Part shown: piece by piece, positions 7,607-25,792 of the stretch | Position numbering within the stretch: the stretch's first letter is position 1 | Layout of the letters: every line of letters starts with the position of its first letter | Origin: Hyphobacterium sp. CCMP332 | GTDB taxonomy: Bacteria; Pseudomonadota; Alphaproteobacteria; Caulobacterales; Maricaulaceae | DNA length: 64,000 bases | Direction: 5' to 3' | Assembly: GCF_014323565.1 (NCBI RefSeq) | Contig: NZ_CP058669.1 | Location: 2,073,501-2,137,500 of the forward strand | Position numbers and translations under genes: made by a program | Notes under the pieces: generated by a model | What the model was told of the DNA's origin: nothing | The model's input: only the letters and a program-made list of their open reading frames with translations | Database searches by the model: none

Positions 7607-9410
7607 TCTGAATCCATCTTCAGCGCCGCGATGAACGCTTCCTGCGGGATGTCCACCCGGCCGAACTGGCGCATCTTCTTCTTGCCCTTCTTCTGCTTTT
7701 CCAGAAGCTTGCGCTTGCGGCTGGCATCGCCGCCATAGCATTTCGCGGTCACGTCCTTGCGCAGGGCCGATAGGGTTTCGCGGGCCACGATCCGGCCACC
7801 GATGGCCGCCTGGATCGGGATCTTGAACATGTGCCGCGGGATCAGGTCTTTCAGCTTTTCGCACATCGATCGCCCGCGCGCTTCGGCGCGGGAGCGGTGC
7901 ACGATCATGGACAGCGCATCGACCGGCTCGTCATTGACCAGAACCGTCATCTTCACGAGATCATTCTCGCGATAATCCTTCCACTGATAGTCGAAGGACG
8001 CATAGCCCTTGGTCACCGATTTCAGGCGGTCATAGAAATCGAACACCACTTCATTGAGCGGCAATTCATAGACCACCAGAGCGCGGCTGCCGGCATAGGT
8101 CAGCTGCTGCTGGATGCCGCGCCGGTCCTCGCACAGCTTCAGCACACCGCCCAGATATTCATCCGGAACCAGAATCGTCGCCGTGATCCAGGGCTCCTCG
8201 AAATGATCGATCTGGGAGGGTCGGGCATGTCTGCCGGATTGTGGAGATCGATCTCGGACCCGTCATTCATGTTCAGCTTGTAGACCACGGACGGCGCCGT
8301 CGTGATCAGGTCAACATTGTATTCCCGCTCCAGACGCTCACGGATCACTTCCAGATGAAGCAGGCCGAGGAAGCCGCAGCGGAAGCCGAAGCCGAGCGCC
8401 GCCGAGGTTTCCATCTCGAAGGAGAACGAGGCATCATTCAGCGCCAGCCGCTCGATCGCATCGCGCAGATCTTCAAACTCGGCGCTATCGACCGGGAAGA
8501 GGCCGCAGAACACCACCGGAATGGCGGGCTTGAAGCCCGGCAGCATGGAATCCGTGGGGCGCTTTTCATCGGTGATCGTATCGCCGACCCGCGCATCGCG
8601 CACCTGCTTGATCGAGGCGTTGAGGAAGCCGATTTCGCCCGGGCCCAGCACATCGACACTGGTCTTGGCGGGCGTGAAGACGCCAACGCCATCCACGCCA
8701 TAACTGCCGCCCGTGCCCATCAGGCGCACGCGCATGCCCTTTTTCAGCTGGCCTTCAATCACCCGCACCAGACAGATCACGCCCAGATAGGAATCATACC
8801 AGCTGTCGACCAATAGCGCCTTCAGCGGCGCCGCAGGATCCCCATATTTCGGCGGTGGCAGCTTGTTGACGATGGTCTCCAGCACCTGGTCGACATTGAG
8901 GCCGGTCTTCGCGGAAATCTCCACCGCATCATGGGCCTCGATCCCGATCACATCCTCGATCTGCTGCTTGATGCGTTCCGGCTCGGCGGCGGGCAGGTCG
9001 ATCTTGTTGAGGACGGGCGCAATTTCCAGATCGGCATCAATCGCCTGATAGACATTGGCCAGCGTCTGCGCTTCCACGCCCTGCGCGGCATCCACGACCA
9101 GCAGCGCGCCTTCGCAGGCATAGAGCGAGCGCGAGACTTCATAGGCGAAGTCGACATGGCCGGGCGTGTCGATCAGGTTGAGAATATAGGTCTGGCCATC
9201 CTTGGCCTTGTATTCCAGCCGCACCGTCTGCGCCTTGATGGTGATGCCGCGCTCGCGCTCCAGCTCCATATTGTCGAGCACCTGCTCCTTCATCTCACGC
9301 TCGGTCAACCCGCCGGTGATCTGGATCAGCCGGTCGGCAAGCGTGGATTTCCCGTGGTCGATATGCGCCACGATGGAGAAGTTCCGGATAAGGGATTGAT
9401 CAATGCTCAT
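7603..9410 (-). pseudogene. lepA: elongation factor 4 (LepA), split by a -1 frameshift near 8218
   Basis: LepA is a ribosome-bound translational GTPase. The first part (9410 to about 8220) carries the G motifs AHIDHGKST (15-23), DTPGH and NKID and the EF-G-like domains up to NPADMPDP. The second part (about 8217 to 7603) continues in another frame through [18 protein letters not shown] and the LepA C-terminal domain. The span of 1808 nt is one short of 603 codons, matching a normal protein of about 602 residues. One C (minus strand) is missing where GAC-CC-TCC should read Asp-Pro-Ser, in a G-run at 8218-8220 of the plus strand. No other lesion is seen, so this may be a sequencing error; if real, the gene is inactive or needs frameshifting. 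Confidence 0.92.
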
Positions 9411-10063: not shown

Positions 10064-10660
10064 ATGTCCATACGCCAGTTTGGTTTTGCATTGATCGCCG
10101 CCTTCGGGCTCAGCCTGCCGGCTGCGGCCCAGGATGAGACCGATTACGGCCAGCCCAGCCGCTATTCAGAGGATGTTGACGGATATTCCCAGGAAGAAGT
10201 CGTCGATGCTGTGTCCGATTTCTTCGGCGTCACCGCAGAGGCCGCCGCCGCCGTGGTGGAACGGGTCTTCTCCGATCTTGGCCGGCCCGTCGGCTATGTC
10301 GCGGGCGAGGAAGTTGCCGCCGCCGTGGGCGTCGGCCTGCGCTATGGCGAAGGTTATCTGACCATGCGCGATGGCCGTCAGGAACATGTCTACTGGCAGG
10401 GCCCGTCGATCGGCTTTGATACCGGCGGCAATGCCAGCCGCGTCTTCGTGCTGGTCTATCGCATGGATGATCCGGACCGCATCTTCCGCCGCTTCCCCGG
10501 CGTGGAAGGCTCGGCCTATTTTGTGGGCGGCATGGGCGTGAATTATCAGCGCGCCGATGGCATCACCCTGGCCCCGATCCGCTCCGGTGTCGGCCTGCGC
10601 GCCGGTGCCAATGTCGGCTATCTCGCCTATTCCCGCCGCCGCAACTGGTTGCCCTTCTAG
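10064..10660 (+). CDS. eipA: EipA family (DUF1134) periplasmic envelope-integrity protein
   Basis: A 198-residue secreted protein of the DUF1134 family, whose Brucella member EipA is a periplasmic protein needed for cell-envelope integrity. A Sec signal peptide ends near AAAQ. The mature part carries the conserved stretches WQGPSIGFDTGGNASR, GSAYFVGGMGVNY, and the C-terminal PIRSGVGLRAGANVGYLAYS. I chose the ATG at 10064, preceded by AGGAAA at good spacing and directly followed by the signal peptide; an upstream start would add 21 residues. It is followed 9 bp later by a GNAT gene, so the two are probably cotranscribed. Confidence 0.9.
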   Translation: MSIRQFGFALIAAFGLSLPAAAQDETDYGQPSRYSEDVDGYSQEEVVDAVSDFFGVTAEAAAAVVERVFSDLGRPVGYVAGEEVAAAVGVGLRYGEGYLTMRDGRQEHVYWQGPSIGFDTGGNASRVFVLVYRMDDPDRIFRRFPGVEGSAYFVGGMGVNYQRADGITLAPIRSGVGLRAGANVGYLAYSRRRNWLPF

Positions 10661-13013: not shown

Positions 13014-15412
13014 TACCCCCGTAAAACCGCTCCCGTCGCTTTCTCGACCGACGCCACAATCTTCGCCGCAACCGCTTCGATTTCCTTGTCAGTGAGGGTT
13101 TTCTCACGCGGCTGGATGACCGCCTCGATGGCCAGCGAGACCTGCCCCTCGGGCACGCCCTTGCCGGCATAGACATCAAACACGGAAACGTCCGCAATCA
13201 TCGCCTTGTCCGCGCCCTTGGCCGCCCGGACCAGCGTATCCGCAGCGACGGTGGAATCGACGAGGAAAGCGAAATCGCGCTTCACGGGTGTCAGCTCGGC
13301 GCGATCCAGCGCCGGACGCGCCTTGGTTGCGGCCTTCTTCTTCGGGTCGGGAATACCGTCGAGAATGATCTCGAAGCCAATAACGCGGCCATCAATACCG
13401 AGTGCTTTCAGAACGCGCGGATGAATTTCGCCAAACTCGGCCAGCACATTCTTTGGCCCCAGACGCAAAACGCCAGAGCGCCCCGGATGCCACCAGTTGC
13501 GCGCCTCGGCTGCAACCTGTAGCGACTCCACCGGCGCACCGGCGGCGTCCAGCGCCGCCATCGCATCGGCCTTGGCATCAAACAGATCGGCTTCGCGCGT
13601 CCCGGCCCAGCGCCGTCCGGCAGCGACAAAACGCACACCCGACACCGCCATGCGTTGGCCGTCCGGCGCATCGGTCAGATAGATCGGACCGGCTTCAAAC
13701 AGGCGCGGATCCGCAATGCCCTTGTCGGCATTGTCCTGCAACGCGGTCAGAAGATGGATCAGCGCCGTCGGCCGCATCACATCAAGATCGGACGAAATCG
13801 GATTGGCCAGCTCCAGCCCCTCGCCATGTCCGCCAAACAAGGCAGCCTGATCCCGGTGACAGAAGGACCAGGTGACCGCCTCGTTATAGCCGCGCACCGC
13901 CAGCGCCCGGCGGGCATGGCGGGCGCGGTTCTGCCCCTCGGTGGCGGTCGGCTCGCGCCGCCCCGGCAGTTTCGGCAGTGAAATGGCTTCAATCCGGTTA
14001 TAGCCGTGAATGCGCGCCACCTCCTCGACGAGGTCGGCCTTCATCGTGCAATCGCGGCGGAAGGTCGGCACTTCCACATGCAGCGTGTCACCCGAACCCG
14101 CGACGCCGAAGCCCAGATCCATCAGGATTTTCGTGATCGTCTCCGGTGTCAGATCCAGCCCGGTCAGACGCCTGACCTCGGAGACCGGAAACGTGATCGG
14201 TGCCGGTGCCGCCGGAGCTTCACCCGCAACCCGGATTTCGGAAACCTCGCCGCCGCACAAGTCGACGATCATCTGTGTGGCCAGATCGATCCCGGTCTGG
14301 ATCGAACCGGTATCGACACCACGCTCGAACCGGTAGCGCGCATCCGATTCAATGCCGGTCGCCCGGCCTGTGGCGCGGGTGATCTCGGGATCAAACCAGG
14401 CGCTCTCGATAAAGACATTAACGGTGCCGTCGGTGACGCCGGACATCTCCCCGCCCATCACACCACCCAGGCCAAGGCAATTGTCTTCATCGGCAATCAC
14501 GCACTGCTCGGCGGTCGGCGTATAGTGTTTGCCATCCAGCGCCTCGAACCGATCCGCCTCGCCCTTGCCCCGGCGGGCAATGATGGTCGGGCCGATCTTG
14601 TCGGCATCATAGACGTGCAAGGGGCGGCAGCGGTCATAGGAGACGAGATTGGTGATATCGGCGAGGATGTTGATCGGGCGCAGGCCGATGGCTTCCAGCT
14701 TGCGTTTCAGCCAGTCCGGCGAGGGACCATTCTTGACGCCGCGAATATAGCGCCCGGCAAAGACCGGACAGGCCTCCGGATAGTCCAGCCGGATCTCGAT
14801 CGGGCAGGGAAAAGCGCCCTTGATCTGCTTCGGTGCCGGCGTGATCACCTTGCCCAGTCCTGCAGCGGCGAGGTCGCGCGCAATCCCGTCCACGCCCAGC
14901 CAGTCCGGGCGGTTGGGCGTCACTTCAAAATCAATCACCGGATCATTCGCGCCCAGCGCCTCGGCGGCGGGGCCCCCGACCGCCCAATCACCTTTGAGAT
15001 CGATAATGCCGTCATGATCCTCACCGGCATTCAGTTCCTTCGCGGAACACAGCATGCCGTGGGATTCAATGCCGCGAATCTTGCGAGGCTTTTTATCCAG
15101 CGCGAAATCCGCGCCCGGAATCCAGGTGCCGAGCGGCGCATAGATCGCCTTCATCCCGGCATGCGCATTGGGCGCGCCGCAGACAATCTGTTTGGTGCCT
15201 TCATACGTCTCGACGGTGCAGACTTTCAGCTTGTCGGCATCGGGGTGTTTTTCTGCCGAGATGACATGCGCCACGGTAAAGGCCGACAGGGCTTCAGCCG
15301 GGTTGTCGACATGCTCAACTTCAAGACCGGCCATGGTCATCGCTTCAACGATCTCGTCGACGGAGGCATCGGTTTCCAGATGCTCTTTCAGCCAGGACAG
15401 GGTGAATTTCAT
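13013..15412 (-). CDS. pheT: phenylalanine--tRNA ligase beta subunit
   Basis: The 799-residue beta chain of the alpha2-beta2 phenylalanyl-tRNA synthetase. It has the N-terminal tRNA-binding (EMAP-like) domain (VAHVISAEKHPDADKLKVC, about 48-66), the B3/B4 editing region that removes mis-charged tyrosine, the B5 domain, and the C-terminal ferredoxin-fold anticodon-binding domain ending at the stop. Length is normal. Its ATG overlaps the stop of the upstream unknown gene (ATGA, 15409-15412), which implies translational coupling; pheS lies two genes further upstream. Confidence 0.97.
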   Translation of the reverse strand: MKFTLSWLKEHLETDASVDEIVEAMTMAGLEVEHVDNPAEALSAFTVAHVISAEKHPDADKLKVCTVETYEGTKQIVCGAPNAHAGMKAIYAPLGTWIPGADFALDKKPRKIRGIESHGMLCSAKELNAGEDHDGIIDLKGDWAVGGPAAEALGANDPVIDFEVTPNRPDWLGVDGIARDLAAAGLGKVITPAPKQIKGAFPCPIEIRLDYPEACPVFAGRYIRGVKNGPSPDWLKRKLEAIGLRPINILADITNLVSYDRCRPLHVYDADKIGPTIIARRGKGEADRFEALDGKHYTPTAEQCVIADEDNCLGLGGVMGGEMSGVTDGTVNVFIESAWFDPEITRATGRATGIESDARYRFERGVDTGSIQTGIDLATQMIVDLCGGEVSEIRVAGEAPAAPAPITFPVSEVRRLTGLDLTPETITKILMDLGFGVAGSGDTLHVEVPTFRRDCTMKADLVEEVARIHGYNRIEAISLPKLPGRREPTATEGQNRARHARRALAVRGYNEAVTWSFCHRDQAALFGGHGEGLELANPISSDLDVMRPTALIHLLTALQDNADKGIADPRLFEAGPIYLTDAPDGQRMAVSGVRFVAAGRRWAGTREADLFDAKADAMAALDAAGAPVESLQVAAEARNWWHPGRSGVLRLGPKNVLAEFGEIHPRVLKALGIDGRVIGFEIILDGIPDPKKKAATKARPALDRAELTPVKRDFAFLVDSTVAADTLVRAAKGADKAMIADVSVFDVYAGKGVPEGQVSLAIEAVIQPREKTLTDKEIEAVAAKIVASVEKATGAVLRG

Positions 15413-17890: not shown

Positions 17891-18247
17891 TTAGTCCAGT
17901 GCGGCCTGTGCCTGATCGACCAGGGCTTTGAAGGCCTCGGGTTCCCGAATGGCCAGATCGGAGAGCACCTTGCGGTCCACTTCAATCCCGGCCTTCGTGA
18001 GGCCGGCCATAAATCGGGAATAGGTCGTGCCGTGCAGACGGGCACCGGCATTGATCCGCTGGATCCACAAGGCGCGGAAAGTGCGCTTCTTGGTGCGGCG
18101 GTCGCGATAGGCGTACTGGCCGGCTTTCTCGACGGCCTGTACCGCAACGCGGTAAACATTTTTCCGGCGGCCATAATAACCTTTGGCCTGGGAAATAACT
18201 TTTTTGTGGCGGGCGCGGGAGACGGTGCCGCGTTTAACTCGTGCCAT
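17891..18247 (-). CDS. rplT: 50S ribosomal protein L20
   Basis: The 118-residue L20 binds 23S rRNA and is needed early in 50S assembly. The sequence has the typical basic N-terminus ([17 protein letters not shown]), [12 protein letters not shown], and [13 protein letters not shown]. In several bacteria L20 represses its own rpmI-rplT mRNA; no leader mimic could be assigned by eye here. It follows rpmI by 35 bp. Confidence 0.98.
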
Positions 18248-18282
18248 GATTCAAGCTCCGTAACGGGTGATTCCAGTACGCC

Positions 18283-18486
18283 TTAAAGGCCGTAGGGAAT
18301 GTAATTCTTTTTCACGATCTTCTGGTCGGCATCCGCCATGACGGTGGTGCCACGCTTGTTGCGGATCTGCTTATTCGTCCGCTTGATCATGCCGTGACGT
18401 TTTCCAGCCTGGCCGGCTTTCACCTTGCCTGTGGCCGTAAGCTTGAAGCGCTTTTTGGCGCCGCTCTTGGTCTTCAACTTCGACAT
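18283..18486 (-). CDS. rpmI: 50S ribosomal protein L35
   Basis: The 67-residue basic L35 of the large ribosomal subunit: [15 protein letters not shown] at the start and [12 protein letters not shown]-type end ([12 protein letters not shown]). I chose the ATG at 18486, which matches homologues and follows GGAG; an upstream start would add four residues. It is the first gene of the rpmI-rplT-DUF1272-pheS-pheT series. infC, often adjacent, is 7.3 kb away on the same strand. Confidence 0.97.
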
Positions 18487-18614
18487 TTTTCGCTCCATTT
18501 CCGGCGGGGTAGGCTCCGCCTTGCGTTCGTCGGCTGCCGGGCATGTCGATCTGGCCCGGGTGGCCGGTGTTTCAAAGAGCGCGCGTCTTATGGGAAAAGC
18601 CGCGCGATTGCAAG

Positions 18615-18914
18615 TCAGACCGGCCGCCGCAAAGCCACATCTATCAGTTCCGCGAATTTCTGCCGCTGGTCCTCGATATCACCCGATGCCAGCGCGTTCT
18701 CAACACAATGATCGGCGTGCGATTTCAGCACTTCACGCTCCACCGCCGTCAACGCCGATTTGATCGCCGAAATCTGGGTCAGAATGTCGATGCAATAGCG
18801 CTCGGTCTCGATCATTCCGGCCACGCCGCGCACCTGTCCCTCGATCCGTTTCAATCGGCCCAGAAGGGCGGTGTGATCGGCGGCAGATGTTGCGTGGTCG
18901 CAGATGTCAGACAT
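18615..18914 (-). CDS. csoR: CsoR-type copper-sensing repressor
   Basis: A 99-residue all-helical metal-sensing repressor. The Cu(I) ligand set of CsoR is present at Cys41, His66 and Cys70, with the same spacing (25 and 4) as the Cys36/His61/Cys65 of the characterised Mycobacterium protein. [12 protein letters not shown] (20-31) is the family DNA/dimer motif. The ATG at 18914 gives a compact product; longer starts run through the operator and promoter. It is divergent from the copper genes, and a 17-bp palindrome with C4/G4 arms lies between them, so it should repress both directions until copper binds. Confidence 0.93.
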
Positions 18915-18934
18915 GATGTAGAAGCGCTCCTTGT

Positions 18935-18951
18935 ATACCCCATAGGGGTAT
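18935..18951. promoter_or_regulatory. CsoR operator, copper-responsive
   Basis: ATACCCC-ATA-GGGGTAT is a perfect 7-bp inverted repeat with 3-bp spacer, the classical form of CsoR-family operators. It lies 21 bp from the csoR start and 15 bp from the start of the TolC-like gene, so one site can control both divergent transcripts and leaves room for only a very short leader on the copper operon. Confidence 0.85.
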
Positions 18952-18966
18952 GTTACGCCTCCGCGC

Positions 18967-20310
18967 ATGTCAATTCGTACCGTCATTCTTGTGTTGGCTT
19001 CAGCCTCGCTTCTTGCGGGCTGCATCACCGTGGACCCGGCCGCCGAACGCCAGGCGACGCTGGACCGGGGCGCCGCTCTCGACACGCCGATCTTCGGCCC
19101 GTTGGGCGAGATGGGCGATACCGTTTCGGAAGATCAGGCCGTCGCCGCCGCTGTCGCGCGAAATCCCCGCCTCGCCGCCGACCTGGCCGAGGCCGGGCTG
19201 GCCCGCGCGGAATGGGCGTCCGCCGTATTACCGCCCAACCTCATCGCCGAGCTGACCTACTTCAATCCGGAAGGCGCTGGCGGTGTGCTCGATGCCGATA
19301 TCCGCGCGCCCATTGCCGCCATCATCGGCTGGCCCCAACGCGCCGCCGCAGCGCGCGCCAATTATGATGCCGCGCAGGCGCGCGCGCTCCAGCGCCTGAT
19401 CGACTTTTCTGCCGAAACCCGCCTCGCCTGGGTAGAGGTCGTCGCCGCCCGCGAACGCGCCAACATGTATGCCCGCATCCTGCAATCTGCTGAGGCCGCC
19501 TTGCTGGTCGCTGAGGAAATCGATGAACTGGGCAATGCCGCGCCGCTCGACCTGACCCGCCAGCGCGTCAATGCGCTCGCCGCACAGGCCGCTGCCGAGG
19601 ACGCAGAGCAGGCGGCACTGGCTGCCGAAATCCGGCTGGAAACAATCCTGACCATGGCAGCCGAACTGCCGGAGCGGCTGCCCACGGACATGGCAGAACT
19701 GCCGGACGCTGGCACAGCCCGCACAACTGCGCTGGAGGCCAGCCTGCCGCTGGCCGTCGCTCGTGCGGACGCCGAGGCTGCCGCACAAGCCGCCGGATAT
19801 ACCGGGATTGAAAGCCTGCTGCATGGCGAGCTGGGTATAGCGCTCGATATAGAAGACGGCGACACGGAACGCGGCGTCTCGGCCCATTTCGACATCCCCA
19901 CGAACGGTTTTGGCCATCCGCAGCGCGCCGCGGCCCGCATTCGCGCCCAACAGGCGGCGGATCGCTATGCGGCCCTGCAAACCGAAATTGCGGGAGAAGT
20001 CGAGCTTCATATCATGGAAATGGATCGCGCCGCCGCCCGCATGGTGCTGATACGCGAGGAGTGGCTGCCTGCCTCCACGCTCGCTCTGGAACAGACGCTG
20101 CAACAGTATAACGGCATGCAGGTGGGCGTTTATGCCCTGCTGGATGCCTTCAATGCACAGGTGGAGGCCGGGCGCGCCTATGTCGACACGCTGGAGCGCT
20201 ATCACCGGGCCCGTATTGCCCTGACCGCGCTCGTGCAAGGCGGATCGCCCATGGGCATGGCCGCATCATCCGGCCTGAACGCAGGAAACGCTGGCGGGGA
20301 AGGGCATTGA
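18967..20310 (+). CDS. TolC-family outer-membrane efflux lipoprotein (CzcC/CusC-like)
   Basis: A 447-residue outer-membrane factor. The signal peptide ends in the lipobox LLAGC with acylated Cys19. The rest is long, Ala-rich and amphipathic helix with two similar halves, as in CusC/CzcC channel proteins (for example LAWVEVVAARERANMYARI and VGVYALLDAFNAQVEAGRAY). It would carry ions or copper-loaded molecules across the outer membrane, but no RND pump or membrane-fusion protein is encoded here. First gene of the copper operon; one base separates it from the oxidase gene. Confidence 0.88.
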   Translation: MSIRTVILVLASASLLAGCITVDPAAERQATLDRGAALDTPIFGPLGEMGDTVSEDQAVAAAVARNPRLAADLAEAGLARAEWASAVLPPNLIAELTYFNPEGAGGVLDADIRAPIAAIIGWPQRAAAARANYDAAQARALQRLIDFSAETRLAWVEVVAARERANMYARILQSAEAALLVAEEIDELGNAAPLDLTRQRVNALAAQAAAEDAEQAALAAEIRLETILTMAAELPERLPTDMAELPDAGTARTTALEASLPLAVARADAEAAAQAAGYTGIESLLHGELGIALDIEDGDTERGVSAHFDIPTNGFGHPQRAAARIRAQQAADRYAALQTEIAGEVELHIMEMDRAAARMVLIREEWLPASTLALEQTLQQYNGMQVGVYALLDAFNAQVEAGRAYVDTLERYHRARIALTALVQGGSPMGMAASSGLNAGNAGGEGH

Positions 20311-20311
20311 T

Positions 20312-21655
20312 ATGAGTTTTTCCCGCAGAGACGCCCTTCTGGCCGGTGCCACCGGCCTGGTCGCCACACCCTTTCTGGCCTCCTCCGCCTCAGCGCAAAC
20401 CCGCTCCGGCCCGGCTCATTCCGCCAGTGTGAGCCATTCTGTCCAATACCGCCCCGGACGGCCGAATGAAGATTATCGCCCGGTCATTACGCCCAATGGG
20501 ACCACGCTCGATTATCGCGTGGTCGACGGGGTGAAGGTCTTCCACCTCGTCGCCGGTGAAGTCGATCACGAATTCGCCAGCGGTCTCACCGCCCGCACCT
20601 GGGGCTATAATGGCCGCACCCACGGGCCGACGATCGAATGTGTCGAAGGCGACCGCGTGCGCATCTATGTCACCAACCGGCTGATCGCACCGACCACCGT
20701 GCACTGGCACGGCGTCATCCTGCCGTCGGGCATGGACGGCGTCGGGGGCCTGTCACAGGCCGCGATCCAGCCGGGCGAGACCTTTGTCTATGAGTGGACC
20801 TTCCGCCAGCACGGCACCTTCATGTATCACTCCCACCATGACGAGATGACCCAGATGGCCATGGGTCTGATGGGCATGATCGTCGTGCATCCGCGCCGCC
20901 CGCGCGGACCGCTTCCGGATCGTGATTACGCCATCCTGCTCTCGACCTGGAAGCTGGAGCCGGGCGCGCGCAGCCCCGATCCCAACGAGATGACGGATTT
21001 CAACCTGTTGACCATGAATGCACGGGTCTATCCGGGCACCGAACCTCTGCTCGCCGAGCGCGGCGAACGTGTGCGCATCCGCCTCGGCAATCTCTCGGGC
21101 ATGGACCACCACCCCATCCATCTGCACGGCTATGCCTTCCGCATCACCGAGACCGATGGCGGCGAAATTCCCGAGACGGCCCAGCACCCCGACACCACGG
21201 TTCTGGTGCCGACCGGTGCCACGCGAACGGTCGAATTTGTGGCTGACAATCCCGGCGACTGGGCCATGCATTGCCATATGACCCATCATGTCATGAACCA
21301 GATGGGCCACGGCCTTCCCAATCTGCTCGGCGTCAATGCGCGCGTCATTGATCGCGCCGTCGGCCAGCTCCTGCCCACCTATATGACGATGGGGCAGGAC
21401 GGCATGGGCGAGCATGGTGCCCATATCGAGATGGGTCACATGGATGTGCCGGACAATTCCATCCCCATGGTCGGGGCCCGCGGACCACACGATTACATCA
21501 CCATGGGCGGCATGTTCACGATTCTGAAAGTGCGCGACCGGCTGAACGGGACTGCCGATCCGGGCTGGTATCAGGCCCCCGAAGGCACGCAGGCGCGCGA
21601 AGCGACGACCGCAGAATTACAACGCGACGGTATAAATCCGAACCGCCAGAGCTGA
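20312..21655 (+). CDS. Tat-exported multicopper oxidase
   Basis: A 447-residue periplasmic laccase/CopA-like oxidase, likely oxidising Cu(I) to the less toxic Cu(II). A twin-arginine signal (SRRDALLAGATG) leads. All copper motifs are seen: HWHG (131-134), HSHH (173-176), HHPIHLHG (266-273) and HCHMTHHVMNQM (320-331) with Cys321, His326 and axial Met331. A Met/His-rich segment (about 358-380, TMGQDGMGEHGAHIEMGHMD) resembles copper-gathering loops of CueO/CopA. Second gene of the CsoR-controlled operon. Confidence 0.93.
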   Translation: MSFSRRDALLAGATGLVATPFLASSASAQTRSGPAHSASVSHSVQYRPGRPNEDYRPVITPNGTTLDYRVVDGVKVFHLVAGEVDHEFASGLTARTWGYNGRTHGPTIECVEGDRVRIYVTNRLIAPTTVHWHGVILPSGMDGVGGLSQAAIQPGETFVYEWTFRQHGTFMYHSHHDEMTQMAMGLMGMIVVHPRRPRGPLPDRDYAILLSTWKLEPGARSPDPNEMTDFNLLTMNARVYPGTEPLLAERGERVRIRLGNLSGMDHHPIHLHGYAFRITETDGGEIPETAQHPDTTVLVPTGATRTVEFVADNPGDWAMHCHMTHHVMNQMGHGLPNLLGVNARVIDRAVGQLLPTYMTMGQDGMGEHGAHIEMGHMDVPDNSIPMVGARGPHDYITMGGMFTILKVRDRLNGTADPGWYQAPEGTQAREATTAELQRDGINPNRQS

Positions 21656-21666
21656 CAGGAAACACA

Positions 21667-21987
21667 ATGGAAATTTTCTTTGCACTCGCCCTCATGACCG
21701 CGCCGGTCGATCATGGCTCCGATGGTCATGACCACCATGCCGAAGAAACGGCAGCGCAGTCGCGTGTCGCCGCCGATGTGCGGACAGTTGATGCCCATGC
21801 GCGGATAGCTCTCTTGCGTCACGAAGCCATGCCGGAGCTGGGCATGCCCTCCATGGTTATGCAATTTGCAATCGCCGATGATGTGGATCTCGCCCTCTTT
21901 GAACCGGGTGCGGCCCTGACGATCACCGCCACGATGGGCGAGGATGGCCTCACCGTCATCGCCGCCGAACCGGAAACAACAGAGTAA
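21667..21987 (+). CDS. CusF-like periplasmic copper-binding protein
   Basis: A 106-residue small protein with an N-terminal hydrophobic export segment and a His-rich stretch (HGSDGHDHH, 16-24). The C-terminal fold matches CusF: RHEAMPELGMPSMVMQF places His52, Met63 and Met65 at the spacing of the CusF ligands His36, Met47 and Met49. The Trp44 that covers Cu(I) in CusF is replaced by Met60. It should bind Cu(I)/Ag(I) in the periplasm and pass it to the oxidase or efflux channel. It overlaps the next gene by TAATG. Confidence 0.82.
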   Translation: MEIFFALALMTAPVDHGSDGHDHHAEETAAQSRVAADVRTVDAHARIALLRHEAMPELGMPSMVMQFAIADDVDLALFEPGAALTITATMGEDGLTVIAAEPETTE

Positions 21988-22691
21988 TGCGCCCGCTCAT
22001 CCGCTGGCTGATAACGCTGCACAAATGGGCCGCCCTGATCATCGGCCTGCAGGTTCTGGCCTGGGTCGCGGGCGGGCTGGTGATGAGCGCCATTCCCATC
22101 CAGCAGGTCCGCGGAGAGCACAATATTGCCGGGCAGACGGCAGAGCTGGATCTGGCCGGTGTCATGTCACCGGGGGAAGCCGCAGCGATTGCCGGCATCA
22201 CGCCCACAGGCGTTGAATTGCGCCCCTGGCTGGGCCGGACCGTTTACGAATTTGGCCGCGATCAAGGCGCTTCCCTGATCATGGATGCTGTCACAGGCGA
22301 TATCCTGTCACCGATTGATGCCGACACGGCCCGGGCGGTCGCGCTGGCCGATTATGCCGGTGAACCGGCGATAGATGCCGTGACCTTCTTCCCCGAGGCA
22401 ACCTGGGAATCGCGCCGCGCCATGCCCACCTGGCGCGTGGATTTCGCCGATGGCGAAGGTACGCGGCTCTATGTCAGCGCGGCCACGGGCGAAGTCATTG
22501 CCCGCCGCAACGACACCTGGCGTTTCTATGATTTCTTCTGGATGCTGCACATCATGGATTATGGCGACCGGTCACACTTCAACCATCCGCTCCTGATCCT
22601 CGCCAGCCTGTTTGCGCTGGGAATGAGCCTGTTCGGCTTTATCCTGCTATTCCCGTGGCTGGGGCGGATGCTGTCGCGGCGAAAAGCCTAG
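21987..22691 (+). CDS. PepSY domain-containing membrane protein
   Basis: A 234-residue protein with an N-terminal transmembrane helix (about 13-36), a large periplasmic segment with two PepSY-like halves (AAAIAGITPTGVELRP; TRLYVSAATGEVIARRND) and a C-terminal helix (about 204-225). PepSY-TM proteins are often found with metal uptake and detoxification genes and may act in periplasmic electron transfer or metal handling; no heme-ligand cluster is obvious. Last gene of the copper operon, coupled to the CusF-like gene by TAATG. It ends in a CTAG overlap with the convergent merC-like gene. Confidence 0.82.
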   Translation: MRPLIRWLITLHKWAALIIGLQVLAWVAGGLVMSAIPIQQVRGEHNIAGQTAELDLAGVMSPGEAAAIAGITPTGVELRPWLGRTVYEFGRDQGASLIMDAVTGDILSPIDADTARAVALADYAGEPAIDAVTFFPEATWESRRAMPTWRVDFADGEGTRLYVSAATGEVIARRNDTWRFYDFFWMLHIMDYGDRSHFNHPLLILASLFALGMSLFGFILLFPWLGRMLSRRKA

Positions 22692-23119
22692 TCCTCGCAC
22701 ATTCCGCATTCGCGTTCGTGGTTGTGCCCGGCGGCCTGACGACGGCGCCAGTTGGCAAAATGAGCGCCCAGAAGCAGGCTGACGCCCGTCACCGTCAGAA
22801 GCGTCTCGAACGGTTGGGCCACAATGTGCGAGGCGCCGGTCAGCATCAGCACCAGACCGAGCCCGGCGAAAAGCATCGTCCATTTGCCGGCCCGCATTGC
22901 CTTCTCGCCCCAGAAAAACGCCAGCAGCGTCACCGGGGCCGCAATCAGGAACAGGAACAGATGTGCCGGGCCTTCCACCAGAGACAGGCGCTCCGCCAGT
23001 TCCGGTGCCAGGGCCGGTGCCGCGACCGCTGCTGTCGGCAGGGCCAGACAGTGCAGCAGGCATATAAGCGAAAGTCCTGTGCCGGACATGTCCAGAATGG
23101 ATTTGGTTTGGTGCGTCAT
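22688..23119 (-). CDS. MerC domain-containing membrane protein
   Basis: A 143-residue protein with four predicted transmembrane helices. Helix 1 contains the paired-cysteine pattern ICLLHCLALP of MerC-type metal transporters. The C-terminus is rich in His and Cys (HNHERECGMCED), a plausible metal-binding tail. The family includes mercury importers, but in genomes without mer genes MerC-like proteins are probably transporters of other soft metals; zinc is suggested by a Zur-box-like site upstream. Convergent with the copper operon. Confidence 0.83.
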   Translation of the reverse strand: MTHQTKSILDMSGTGLSLICLLHCLALPTAAVAAPALAPELAERLSLVEGPAHLFLFLIAAPVTLLAFFWGEKAMRAGKWTMLFAGLGLVLMLTGASHIVAQPFETLLTVTGVSLLLGAHFANWRRRQAAGHNHERECGMCED

Positions 23120-23142
23120 GGGGAAGAGCTCATCCTTGTCCC

Positions 23143-23165
23143 GAAATGATATAATGTAACAAGTC
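23143..23165 (-). promoter_or_regulatory. candidate Zur box upstream of the MerC-like gene
   Basis: The 23-bp AT-rich site matches the enterobacterial Zur consensus (GAAATG-T-TATAAT-A-TAACATTTC) at 19 of 23 positions, in a GC-rich genome where such a stretch is unusual. It begins 24 bp upstream of the merC-like start codon. The match was made by eye; the Zur gene itself is not in the window. Confidence 0.5.
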
Positions 23166-23203
23166 AGGAATTCAAAGCCCTGTTTGCCGGATAACTGTGA
23201 ATC

Positions 23204-23230
23204 AAAAAGGGCGGCTCCGGAGAACCGCCC
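23204..23230 (-). terminator. intrinsic terminator after the four-repeat secreted protein
   Basis: On the minus strand GGGCGG and CCGCCC arms (23209-23214, 23225-23230) enclose a 10-base loop, followed by five Ts (23204-23208). It lies 25 bp after the stop at 23255 and reads as a rho-independent terminator. Confidence 0.8.
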
Positions 23231-23254
23231 TTTCTGTCAGCTTATAGATTGCGG

Positions 23255-25078
23255 CTAGTTGTCGCCGAAGCCAAGCTCCGAGATATGCAGGGTGGCAGGC
23301 GGTGTGCCAGCCGAGGAGGAATATGTTCCCACCCAGATATCATAGACACCGGATGCCGGGTTGGTGAATTCAATACCCGGATTCAGACCTTCAGCCCCGT
23401 CGTCATTGCACCACCAGCTGCCATCGGGCGCATTGACGATCAACACGGTATCCGTACCCGATGTGGCGGATACAAAGAGGTCGAACGCATTGCCGGCTTC
23501 ATAAGTGAGCTCGAAATCCGGCGCGGCGGTCGTATAACCCCAGCATCCGTCCGGTCCGCTTTCGCGTACATTGATGTCGCCGCCCGCGGCGATCTGGACA
23601 TTGTACGGATCCGGGATGAAGCCCGAAGACAGGGACGTCGATCCGTAATTCGCATTCAGCGTATAATCGAGCAGATTGACGTCGGGTACGGGTGATCCGC
23701 CATAGCCAATCTCCGAAATGTGGAGTGTGGCGGCAGGCGTGCCGGCAGACGACGAATACGTTCCCACCCAGATGTCGTAGACACCCGATTGCGGGCTATC
23801 GAATGTGAGGCCCGGATTGAGGCCTTCAGCCCCGTCATCATTGCACCACCAGCTGCCATCGGGTGCGTTGACAATGATCACCGTATCGCTGCTGGAGGTT
23901 GCCGAAAGATAGAGGTCGTACGTGCTACCTGCCGAATAGGTCAGCTCGTAGTCCGGAGCCGCAGTGGTATAGCCCCAGCACATATCGCCGATGGAGGTCG
24001 ATGAGACATCGATATCGCCGCCAGCCGCGATCTGGATATTGACCGGGTCCGGAACGAAACCGGTCCGCAGGGACTGGCCACCATAATTGGCCGGCAGGGA
24101 GACATCGAGTTCGGCCGATGAGCCCGGACCTTCATAGTCTTCGAAGTAGTCATCCGTGGTCGTTCCATCAGCGCCAAAGCCCAGCTCGGAAATGTGGAGC
24201 GTCGCCGGAGGTGTGCCCGCGCCCGATGAATACGTCCCCACCCAGATGTCATAGACACCCGATTGCGGGTTCTCGAACATCAGACCCGGATTGAGCCCAG
24301 CAGAACCGTCATCATCACACGCCCATCGACCATCCGGACCATTGACGATGATCACCGTGTCGCTGTCGGACGTGGCCGAGAGATAGAGATCGAAAGTATT
24401 GCCGGCCTCATAGGTCAGTTCATAATCTGGCGCAGCCGAGGCATACCCCCAGCACATATCGTCAATACCGGCTTCGGCAACGTCGATATTGCCGCCCGCC
24501 GCGATATTGATATTCACGGGGTCCGGAATGAAGCCGGTTTGCAGCGACTGCCCGCCATAGTTGGCTGGCAGCGTGTAATCGAGACCACTGCCCGACCCCG
24601 ATGGGCGCGGACCAAAGCCGATCTCGGATATGAATAGCGTGGCGGGTGGTGTGCTGCCCGCATTGGAATAGGTGCCGACCCAGACATTGTAGAGGCCGGA
24701 GGCAGGCCGCTCGATCCGGACACCCGGATTCAGCGCACCCTCGCCGCCATCATCATCGCAATACCAGTTCCCGCGCGCGTCATTGACGACGATCGTGGTA
24801 TCGGCCTGCGATATGGCGGAGAAAAAGAGATCAAACGAACCGGCCGTATAATAGACATTGAAATCGGGCGCGCTGGCGATATTGCCACGGCACACACCGT
24901 TTCCATCCACCGTCACAGGCACATTCCCGCCCGCCCGGATCTGGACGCTGTGCGGATCCGGCAGATAGCCGGAATCCAGCGTGATCGACCCGTAGCTGGG
25001 TGGTGCAGAGATGTCTTGGGCGGCTACGGACGCGGCGGCTAATGCCGCCACGCCGAGAGCCGGAAGGATATGTTTCAT
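23255..25078 (-). CDS. secreted protein with four tandem PPC-like domains
   Basis: A 607-residue exported protein (Sec signal ending near VAAQ, residue 21). It consists of four copies of one domain of about 130 residues (27-155, 167-301, 325-459, 470-604) joined by short Gly/Ser/Asp linkers. Each unit has YxPDP or FxPDP, two cysteines 44-45 apart (63/107, 209/254, 367/412, 512/557), a CDDDG or CNDDG acidic loop, NPG, and YDIWVGTYS. The pattern recalls pre-peptidase C-terminal (PPC-like) beta-sandwich domains; the conserved cysteine pair points to one disulfide per domain. No enzyme part is present. The ATG at 25078 follows GGGGAGG. The next upstream gene encodes a single copy. Confidence 0.8.
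   Translation of the reverse strand: MKHILPALGVAALAAASVAAQDISAPPSYGSITLDSGYLPDPHSVQIRAGGNVPVTVDGNGVCRGNIASAPDFNVYYTAGSFDLFFSAISQADTTIVVNDARGNWYCDDDGGEGALNPGVRIERPASGLYNVWVGTYSNAGSTPPATLFISEIGFGPRPSGSGSGLDYTLPANYGGQSLQTGFIPDPVNINIAAGGNIDVAEAGIDDMCWGYASAAPDYELTYEAGNTFDLYLSATSDSDTVIIVNGPDGRWACDDDGSAGLNPGLMFENPQSGVYDIWVGTYSSGAGTPPATLHISELGFGADGTTTDDYFEDYEGPGSSAELDVSLPANYGGQSLRTGFVPDPVNIQIAAGGDIDVSSTSIGDMCWGYTTAAPDYELTYSAGSTYDLYLSATSSSDTVIIVNAPDGSWWCNDDGAEGLNPGLTFDSPQSGVYDIWVGTYSSSAGTPAATLHISEIGYGGSPVPDVNLLDYTLNANYGSTSLSSGFIPDPYNVQIAAGGDINVRESGPDGCWGYTTAAPDFELTYEAGNAFDLFVSATSGTDTVLIVNAPDGSWWCNDDGAEGLNPGIEFTNPASGVYDIWVGTYSSSAGTPPATLHISELGFGDN
23267..25000 (-). repeat. intragenic tandem repeat of four ~400-bp units
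   Basis: The four protein domains are also recognisable in DNA: for example the block coding ISELGFG-type ends and the block around the CNDDGAEGLNPG loop recur at 435-475 bp steps. Units 3 and 4 are the closest pair and unit 1 is the most diverged, which fits stepwise duplication at the 3' end of the gene. The array could change copy number by recombination. Confidence 0.7.
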
Positions 25079-25117
25079 GATGGGCCTCCCCGGTCCGTTG
25101 ATCGTCAATTGTGCCGA

Positions 25118-25600
25118 TTAGTAGGAACGGAGTTCCGAAATCGACAACGTCGCATTCTGATACGACGCATTGCCGTATGTGCCGACATAAATATCATACT
25201 GACCCGATGGCGGGCTGTTCCAGCGCAGGGACGGATTGAGACCCTGACCGCCATCATCATCGCAATACCAGCGGCCATCCGGCCCATTGATCACGAGCGT
25301 CGTGTCAGCATTCGAGCTGACCGAAATGATCAGCGGAAGCACATTGCCGGCGCTGTACTGCAAGCGGAAATCGGGGGCGTTGGCGACATAGCCGCGGCAG
25401 GAACCGCCGATCGATTGCGATGCATTGATGGAGCCGCCCGATTGCAGGCTGATCAGATAGGGGTCCGGAGAGAATCCGGACACCAGGGAAACGGAGCCAT
25501 AGGATGGATTGAGACGCCAATCCTGAGCTTCGGCGGCGCCGGCCATCGCAAAGATGGCCAAAGCGGAAGCAGCGGCTGAAAGAGTGAATTTACGAAGCAT
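25118..25600 (-). CDS. secreted single-copy PPC-like domain protein
   Basis: A 160-residue exported protein: signal peptide to about AEAQ (residue 26) and then one domain of the type repeated four times in the next gene, with GFSPDPY, the CRGY and WYCDDDGGQG cysteines, and YDIYVGTYGN. The ATG at 25600 is preceded by GGGGAC. It lies 39 bp upstream of the four-repeat gene on the same strand and is probably the parental form or a partner. Function unknown; structural or ligand-binding role inferred. Confidence 0.8.
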   Translation of the reverse strand: MLRKFTLSAAASALAIFAMAGAAEAQDWRLNPSYGSVSLVSGFSPDPYLISLQSGGSINASQSIGGSCRGYVANAPDFRLQYSAGNVLPLIISVSSNADTTLVINGPDGRWYCDDDGGQGLNPSLRWNSPPSGQYDIYVGTYGNASYQNATLSISELRSY

Positions 25601-25747
25601 GTTACTGTCCCCTGTTTTCGCCCGACCCCGACCATCGGGGGCGGCGCGGAACGGAAAGGTCCTCCTCCCCATTCTCGCGATAGAGACTAACATTAAAACC
25701 CGGTAACAGGTGAACCCCACTTGAACGAAAAAATCGTCGCACCGGCA

Positions 25748-25792
25748 GAAAAACGGCAAACTCCCGCCACAATTCGCGTGTGACGGGAGTTT
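25748..25792 (-). terminator. intrinsic terminator of infC
   Basis: On the minus strand AAACTCCCG and CGGGAGTTT arms (25784-25792, 25758-25766) pair around a loop that holds a further CACA/TGTG pairing, followed by GCCG and a TTTTT tract (25748-25753). It stands 26 bp after the infC stop. Confidence 0.82.

Follow-up and report, generated by a model that had tools for sequence, protein, structure and literature searches.

How can a TolC-fold outer-membrane factor (OMF) serve copper defence when no pump is encoded beside it? The question is posed by a locus of Hyphobacterium sp. CCMP332 within a stretch of 64,000 nucleotides that was analysed as a whole (hereafter the window; positions 2,073,501–2,137,500 of a single-contig genome of 2,690,927 bases, completeness 99.63%). 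Here csoR, on the minus strand, and a plus-strand operon for an OMF, a multicopper oxidase (MCO), a CusF-like protein and a PepSY protein diverge from a 52-base intergenic stretch. With a probability of roughly 0.6, we consider this locus a CsoR-repressed variant of the omp-cueO copper-resistance operon, in which the OMF would act beside the MCO without a resistance-nodulation-division (RND) pump or adaptor, much as PcoB does with PcoA. Its parts, with the matches by which each was recognised, are as follows.

18615–18914, minus strand: csoR, copper-sensing repressor (PF02583, 99.3 bits; closest PDB sequence CsoR 4m1p, 4.4e-20)
18935–18951, between the divergent genes: CsoR operator ATACCCCATAGGGGTAT, 0 mismatches
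18967–20310, plus strand: outer-membrane lipoprotein of probable TolC fold, the OMF (PF02321, 28.2 bits; lipobox LAGC), with Met384 at the periplasmic tip position and a C-terminal His
20312–21655, plus strand: MCO, assigned to the two-domain type (PF07732, 127.5 bits; PF07731, 109.3 bits)
21667–21987, plus strand: CusF-like periplasmic copper-binding protein (PF11604, 62.5 bits)
21987–22691, plus strand: PepSY/PepSY_TM inner-membrane protein (PF03413, 38.7 bits; PF03929, 32.4 bits)

The original prediction, made from the letters of the window, had named the same gene products, and the family profiles agree with it. It had also described the operon as lacking a P1B-ATPase or RND pump, and no P-type ATPase gene and no RND gene is indeed found at 18967–22691. 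Rfam gave no match in 18000–23400.

PF02321 matches the window OMF in two stretches, and a profile match to OprJ is seen at 1e-5. Of 299 genomes of the order, 35 matched the OMF; each of them apart from the window's genome contributed one locus, and in 30 of these 34 loci an MCO gene lies downstream of the OMF gene on the same strand. The four exceptions are a locus whose contig ends inside the OMF gene (L078), two CusCBA-like loci with RND neighbours (L079, L080) and a TolC-like one matched by the TolC query only (L081), and they are the weakest matches (E 9e-12 to 1e-8). A search of the phylum at E 1e-25, in which four candidates were scored per genome so that the counts are lower bounds, found matches in at least 58 of 397 genomes and at least 74 places; 72 loci were fetched (all but G000 and G021), a second, partial match in G178 being left out. 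The OMF scores are bimodal, none lying between 132 and 181 bits: at 181 bits and above an MCO gene is next in 47 of 48 loci, whereas at 132 bits and below an RND gene is next in 24 of 24 and an MCO gene in none. Both kinds co-occur in ten genomes, each beside its own partner, and the MCO-linked clade is present in at least 47 of the 397 sampled genomes. The absence of an inner-membrane partner, which the original prediction had thought unusual, is therefore the usual state within this clade. A scan of genome contigs matched a single relative, the sister species Hyphobacterium indicum of the same genus (OMFs 79% identical), and a plasmid search with the window OMF gave no match; with relatives' OMFs as queries, 338 and 339 plasmid records were returned.

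The MCO-linked and pump-linked OMFs also separate by descent and at the periplasmic tip. In a tree of 104 OMFs, obtained by a quick search and containing long branches, the 78 MCO-type rows (including L193) stand apart from 24 RND-linked rows and from the two further OMFs of the genome, with a Shimodaira–Hasegawa-like approximate likelihood-ratio test (SH-aLRT) support of 99. One 635-residue OMF (L075) was left out of the alignment, and hence of the tree and of the 77-row tip count, and the aligned OMF starts of L049, L057, L071 and L072 may hold a few surplus upstream residues. At residue 384 (window numbering) the MCO-adjacent OMFs carry Met in 76 of 77 cases (30/30 in the order, 46/47 in the phylum, with Asn in L200); L193, whose tip Met rests on an alignment gap, is excluded from this count. 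The same position is Gly in all 24 RND-linked rows and in the genome's two other OMFs, and the tip Gly of an RND-linked row aligns with that in the YSVGTR of E. coli TolC. Five residues further on, 22 of 24 RND-linked rows have Leu and 60 of 78 MCO-type ones Phe, and nine residues past 384 Asp is found in 23 of 24 and 7 of 78, respectively. In CusC, rings of Leu403 and Asp407 shut the periplasmic end (PMC3017539), and because of the Leu-x3-Asp spacing the two columns probably correspond to these residues. The sequence ends in His in 64 of the 78 MCO-type rows and in 2 of the 24 RND-linked ones. Since the rows with Met share it by descent in a single clade, it counts as one event rather than 76 independent ones. 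The tip of L193 is altered, and a return to pump partnership is possible there. In the open-licence literature no paper on this tip signature was found by title or abstract.

The oxidase that accompanies the OMF aligns in one continuous stretch with the two-domain MCOs 2zwn, 3g5w, 3gdc and 7rab, whereas against CueO and three-domain laccases the alignment breaks into two stretches; judged by these alignments it is of the two-domain type, with two cupredoxin domains and no middle domain. A complete set of copper-ligand motifs is present (at 131, 173, 267 and 320), as is a twin-arginine-like N-terminal signal, SRRDAL. All 77 MCO partners (30 from the order, 47 from the phylum) contain HWHG and HCH-x3-H-x4-M, which we take to be ligands of the trinuclear and T1 copper sites, and both sites look complete across the set. 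Predicted structures, computed for two sequences each, were too poor to use (pLDDT 48.5 for the OMF and 34.3 for the MCO) and were set aside. The CusF-like protein reads GMPSMVM, with Met in place of the Trp of E. coli CusF, in which that Trp is followed by two Met ligands.

Whether a pump is encoded elsewhere, as the original prediction thought possible, was addressed by searching the whole genome for copA and cusA. The sole copper P-type ATPase lies behind fixH and fixG and is hence of the FixI/CcoI type, an ATPase that serves the cbb3 oxidase. Five RND genes score 370.7, 287.2, 289.8, 245.6 and 252.9 bits against the CusA/CzcA model, all below its cut-off of 701.45, and no RND match reaches E 1e-120. 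PcoB/CopB (PF05275) has no match genome-wide, the Caulobacter control being positive. At the family cut-off three OMF genes are found, namely the TolC-like L008, one beside the RND gene L004, and that of the operon, and a complete CusCBA set elsewhere, which the original prediction had named as evidence against itself, was sought and not found. The complete genome contains no CopA-type ATPase, CusA-type RND or PcoB, other exporter families not having been searched for, and for the standard copper pumps the absence noted in the operon holds genome-wide, with FixI as the reservation.

A similar poverty of pumps recurs among the 31 genomes of the order with an OMF–MCO pair. CopA and FixI were told apart by similarity to the window FixI and by fixGH neighbours, E-value bands having been discarded after they misplaced G083 and G178 (a split match). 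Eleven of the 31 genomes are without a CopA-type ATPase; ten of them (G000, G068, G138, G168, G183, G198, G013, G048, G038, G021) gave a FixI-like ATPase as their sole match, with 690.7–1528 bits to the window FixI and adjacent fixH and fixG, and G093 has no ATPase match. CopA-type ATPases score 264–308 bits and have no fixH or fixG beside them. Twelve of the 31 have no RND above the CusA/CzcA cut-off, and eight (G000, G068, G093, G138, G168, G183, G198, G038) have neither this, nor CopA, nor PcoB, G138 and G168 holding RND genes below the cut-off (452.2 and 464.3 bits). These eight belong to five genera in two families and are 98–100% complete. PcoB occurs in 7 of the 31 genomes versus 169 of 268 others (Fisher p 2.5e-5, ignoring kinship); mutual exclusion of PcoB and the OMF–MCO pair is not claimed, the figures within the window's family being 3/18 versus 16/42 (p 0.14). 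The sister species G009 carries, some 40 kb from its OMF–MCO operon, a copper cluster without counterpart in the window's genome (L228–L229, G009:C4:724000-763000), comprising PcoB, an MCO with three domains, a PepSY gene, a second OMF, RND pumps above the CusA cut-off and a CopA-type ATPase.

The csoR gene is the only CsoR-family gene of the genome; its product combines the PF02583 match with Cys41, His66 and Cys70, presumably the copper ligands, and a GC-rich palindromic operator lies beside the gene. The operator lies where the original prediction had placed it, and its core, TACCCCNNNGGGGTA, is the one exact site genome-wide, the remaining listed sites having two mismatches each. A pattern with a 4-base spacer failed to match at 18935–18951 and gave one chance-level match elsewhere; the spacer is 3. 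With one exact core and one CsoR-family gene, the exact-site regulon would, by sequence, be limited to the csoR/OMF–MCO divergon. Among the 30 OMF–MCO loci of the order, csoR lies near the OMF gene in 18 (divergent in 12, L048–L059; same strand in six), and the operator core is found with at most one mismatch upstream of the OMF in 13, including 11 of the 12 divergent ones, while the pattern read backwards as a control gives none in 30. In those 11 loci the operator is 85 to 91 bases upstream of the lipobox Cys codon; the twelfth, L055, has a two-mismatch site at 10429–10443. Where csoR is not close to the OMF gene, the loci of the order show no such site within the examined stretch, so that regulation varies among lineages. 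In L072 (G013) two CsoR-like genes (8747–9028 and 13823–14104) lie less than 5 kb apart around one OMF–MCO pair.

The OMF–MCO operon is in fact already known, as a copper-induced resistance operon of Sinorhizobium meliloti. In strain CCNWSX0020 copper induces omp and cueO, neighbours by locus tag, 646- and 243-fold, and hypersensitivity to copper is reported for an omp mutant (PMC4932525); a review gives the MCO operon as Omp, CueO, an azurin-like protein and a chaperone, and cites a proposal that Cu(II) is exported across the outer membrane once oxidised (PMC6266702). On pSymB of S. meliloti Ak57 the order is TolC family protein, copper oxidase, azurin family protein and copper-binding protein; the OMF, in which YNGM is present, reaches 353.5 bits on the clade profile, and the MCO is 49% identical to that of the window over 435 residues. 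The two operons share the OMF clade and MCO family, an OMF gene directly before the MCO gene, a CusF-like gene and the absence of an RND gene. They differ in that S. meliloti has an azurin-like gene between the MCO and CusF-like genes, where the window has no such open reading frame (20312–22691), and in that the window has a divergent csoR and a PepSY gene after CusF, no search for a CsoR operator having been made in S. meliloti. The original prediction thus stands in part: CsoR control and the lack of a standard copper pump are supported, the supposed oddity of the OMF is not, and the S. meliloti precedent was missed.

Other copper systems share some features with the window. The PcoAB pair of Caulobacter and of an E. 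coli plasmid likewise combines a periplasmic MCO with an outer-membrane protein in an operon without a pump, and a PepSY gene stands beside pcoAB in the sister species (L228) as one stands in the window operon; however, PcoB is a beta-barrel (PF05275), unlike the OMF, and the PcoA of L228 has all three Cu-oxidase domains where the window MCO has two. Both efflux (PMC12509749) and copper uptake (PMC9210255) have been proposed for PcoB. CusCFBA also has a lipoprotein OMF, of the TolC fold that the window OMF probably has, and a CusF-like protein, whereas the window lacks CusA and CusB, and its OMF is of another clade, with Met rather than Gly at the tip. In Bradyrhizobium liaoningense csoR is likewise divergent from a copper-resistance gene, cueA, but the target there is a P-type ATPase and not an OMF–MCO operon; insertions in tolC and in the MCO gene copA reduce copper tolerance, that in tolC also tolerance of other metals (PMC5057107).

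Downstream of the operon, three minus-strand genes follow: a MerC-like membrane protein (22688–23119; PF03203, 62.5 bits), whose gene is convergent with that for PepSY and adjoins it in the sister species as well (L048); a 617-residue protein with repeated units and a pre-peptidase C-terminal domain match (23255–25108); and a short neighbour of similar sequence to the latter (25118–25759).

Taken as a mechanism, with the genes and site in place, cytosolic Cu(I) would bind CsoR and free the single operator, derepressing the operon. The exported two-domain MCO would then use O2 to oxidise Cu(I) in the periplasm to Cu(II), the CusF-like protein, going by its family, may carry or buffer Cu(I) to it, and the OMF may be an exit pore for oxidised copper, an outer-membrane dock stabilising the oxidase, or both. 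The direction of flux through the OMF, its independence from an adaptor and any role of a Met ring are what we infer. Several points weigh against this reading. The weightiest is that a passive pore alone cannot work against an outside copper excess; oxidation and gradients would have to supply the energy, or the OMF serves the MCO otherwise. The analogue, E. coli PcoB, is reported to admit copper and to sensitise cells (PMC9210255). Adjacency is compatible with a pump elsewhere, three of the five RND pumps having no OMF gene in the flank seen; one clade member, L193 (G429), adjoins an upstream RND gene and has no MCO, and an RND gene accompanies the MCO within the fetched stretch in L160, L178, L190 and L199 of the phylum and L062 and L075 of the order. 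The S. meliloti strain with the phenotype differs from the one compared, Ak57, to which it was matched by gene order, and for this organism the case is one from genes and sequence.

Could the OMF be the exit duct of a tripartite pump after all, with one of the five RND pumps and its adaptor encoded elsewhere? TolC-fold proteins normally require an adaptor, the nearest other OMFs sit in CusCBA-type clusters, and of the five RND genes L004 alone has an adjoining OMF gene, L005 having one about 3 kb off. Yet no RND of the five reaches the CusA/CzcA cut-off, a housekeeping TolC (L008) exists, twelve relatives with the pair do without an RND above that cut-off, and the tip that an adaptor would touch is rewritten clade-wide, so that this pairing, entertained in the original prediction, is disfavoured and unlikely. 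The near-perfect pairing of OMF and MCO would also suit an OMF that mainly serves assembly or docking, stabilising the MCO at the outer membrane and moving no copper; in Caulobacter, PcoB stabilises PcoA through its N-terminal domain (PMC12509749); that the OMF keeps its full length and both PF02321 repeats, which a mere dock would not need, makes this quite unlikely.

An inward role, in which the OMF would admit copper that is loaded into the MCO or stored in the periplasm, follows a proposal made for E. coli PcoB and draws on the finding that PcoB alone sensitises cells and conducts copper inward in vitro (PMC9210255). PcoB is an unrelated beta-barrel, however, and the hypersensitivity reported for S. 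meliloti omp mutants (PMC4932525) is contrary to the effect expected if an importer alone were lost, leaving such a role very improbable. Finally, CsoR-family repressors include nickel/cobalt, formaldehyde and sulfur sensors, and weak RcnR and FrmR matches are seen here; but the closest solved relative is CsoR, the Cys-His-Cys set is present and all target genes encode copper proteins, and we give hardly any credence to a non-copper signal that would take the operon out of the copper response.

One may tentatively go further, though we regard this extension as rather doubtful: MCO-linked OMFs would be a pump-free copper exit in which the adaptor-docking tip is rebuilt with three Met384 side chains (one per protomer) as a Cu(I)-sensing or -delivering ring at the periplasmic mouth, the channel opens without RND or adaptor, and Cu(I) oxidation by the attached MCO makes the step one-way. 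If true, redox-driven exit across the outer membrane would be the main copper defence in bacteria without CopA, CusA and PcoB. TolC-fold channels are taught as passive pump ends, and here a whole clade is coupled to an oxidase instead, differing from pump-linked channels exactly at the tip that adaptors grip. Copper defence appears possible without CopA, CusA or PcoB in several genera, and, as the clade includes S. meliloti omp, a gene with an existing copper phenotype, a known rhizobial copper-resistance operon is a good place to ask how copper exits without a pump.

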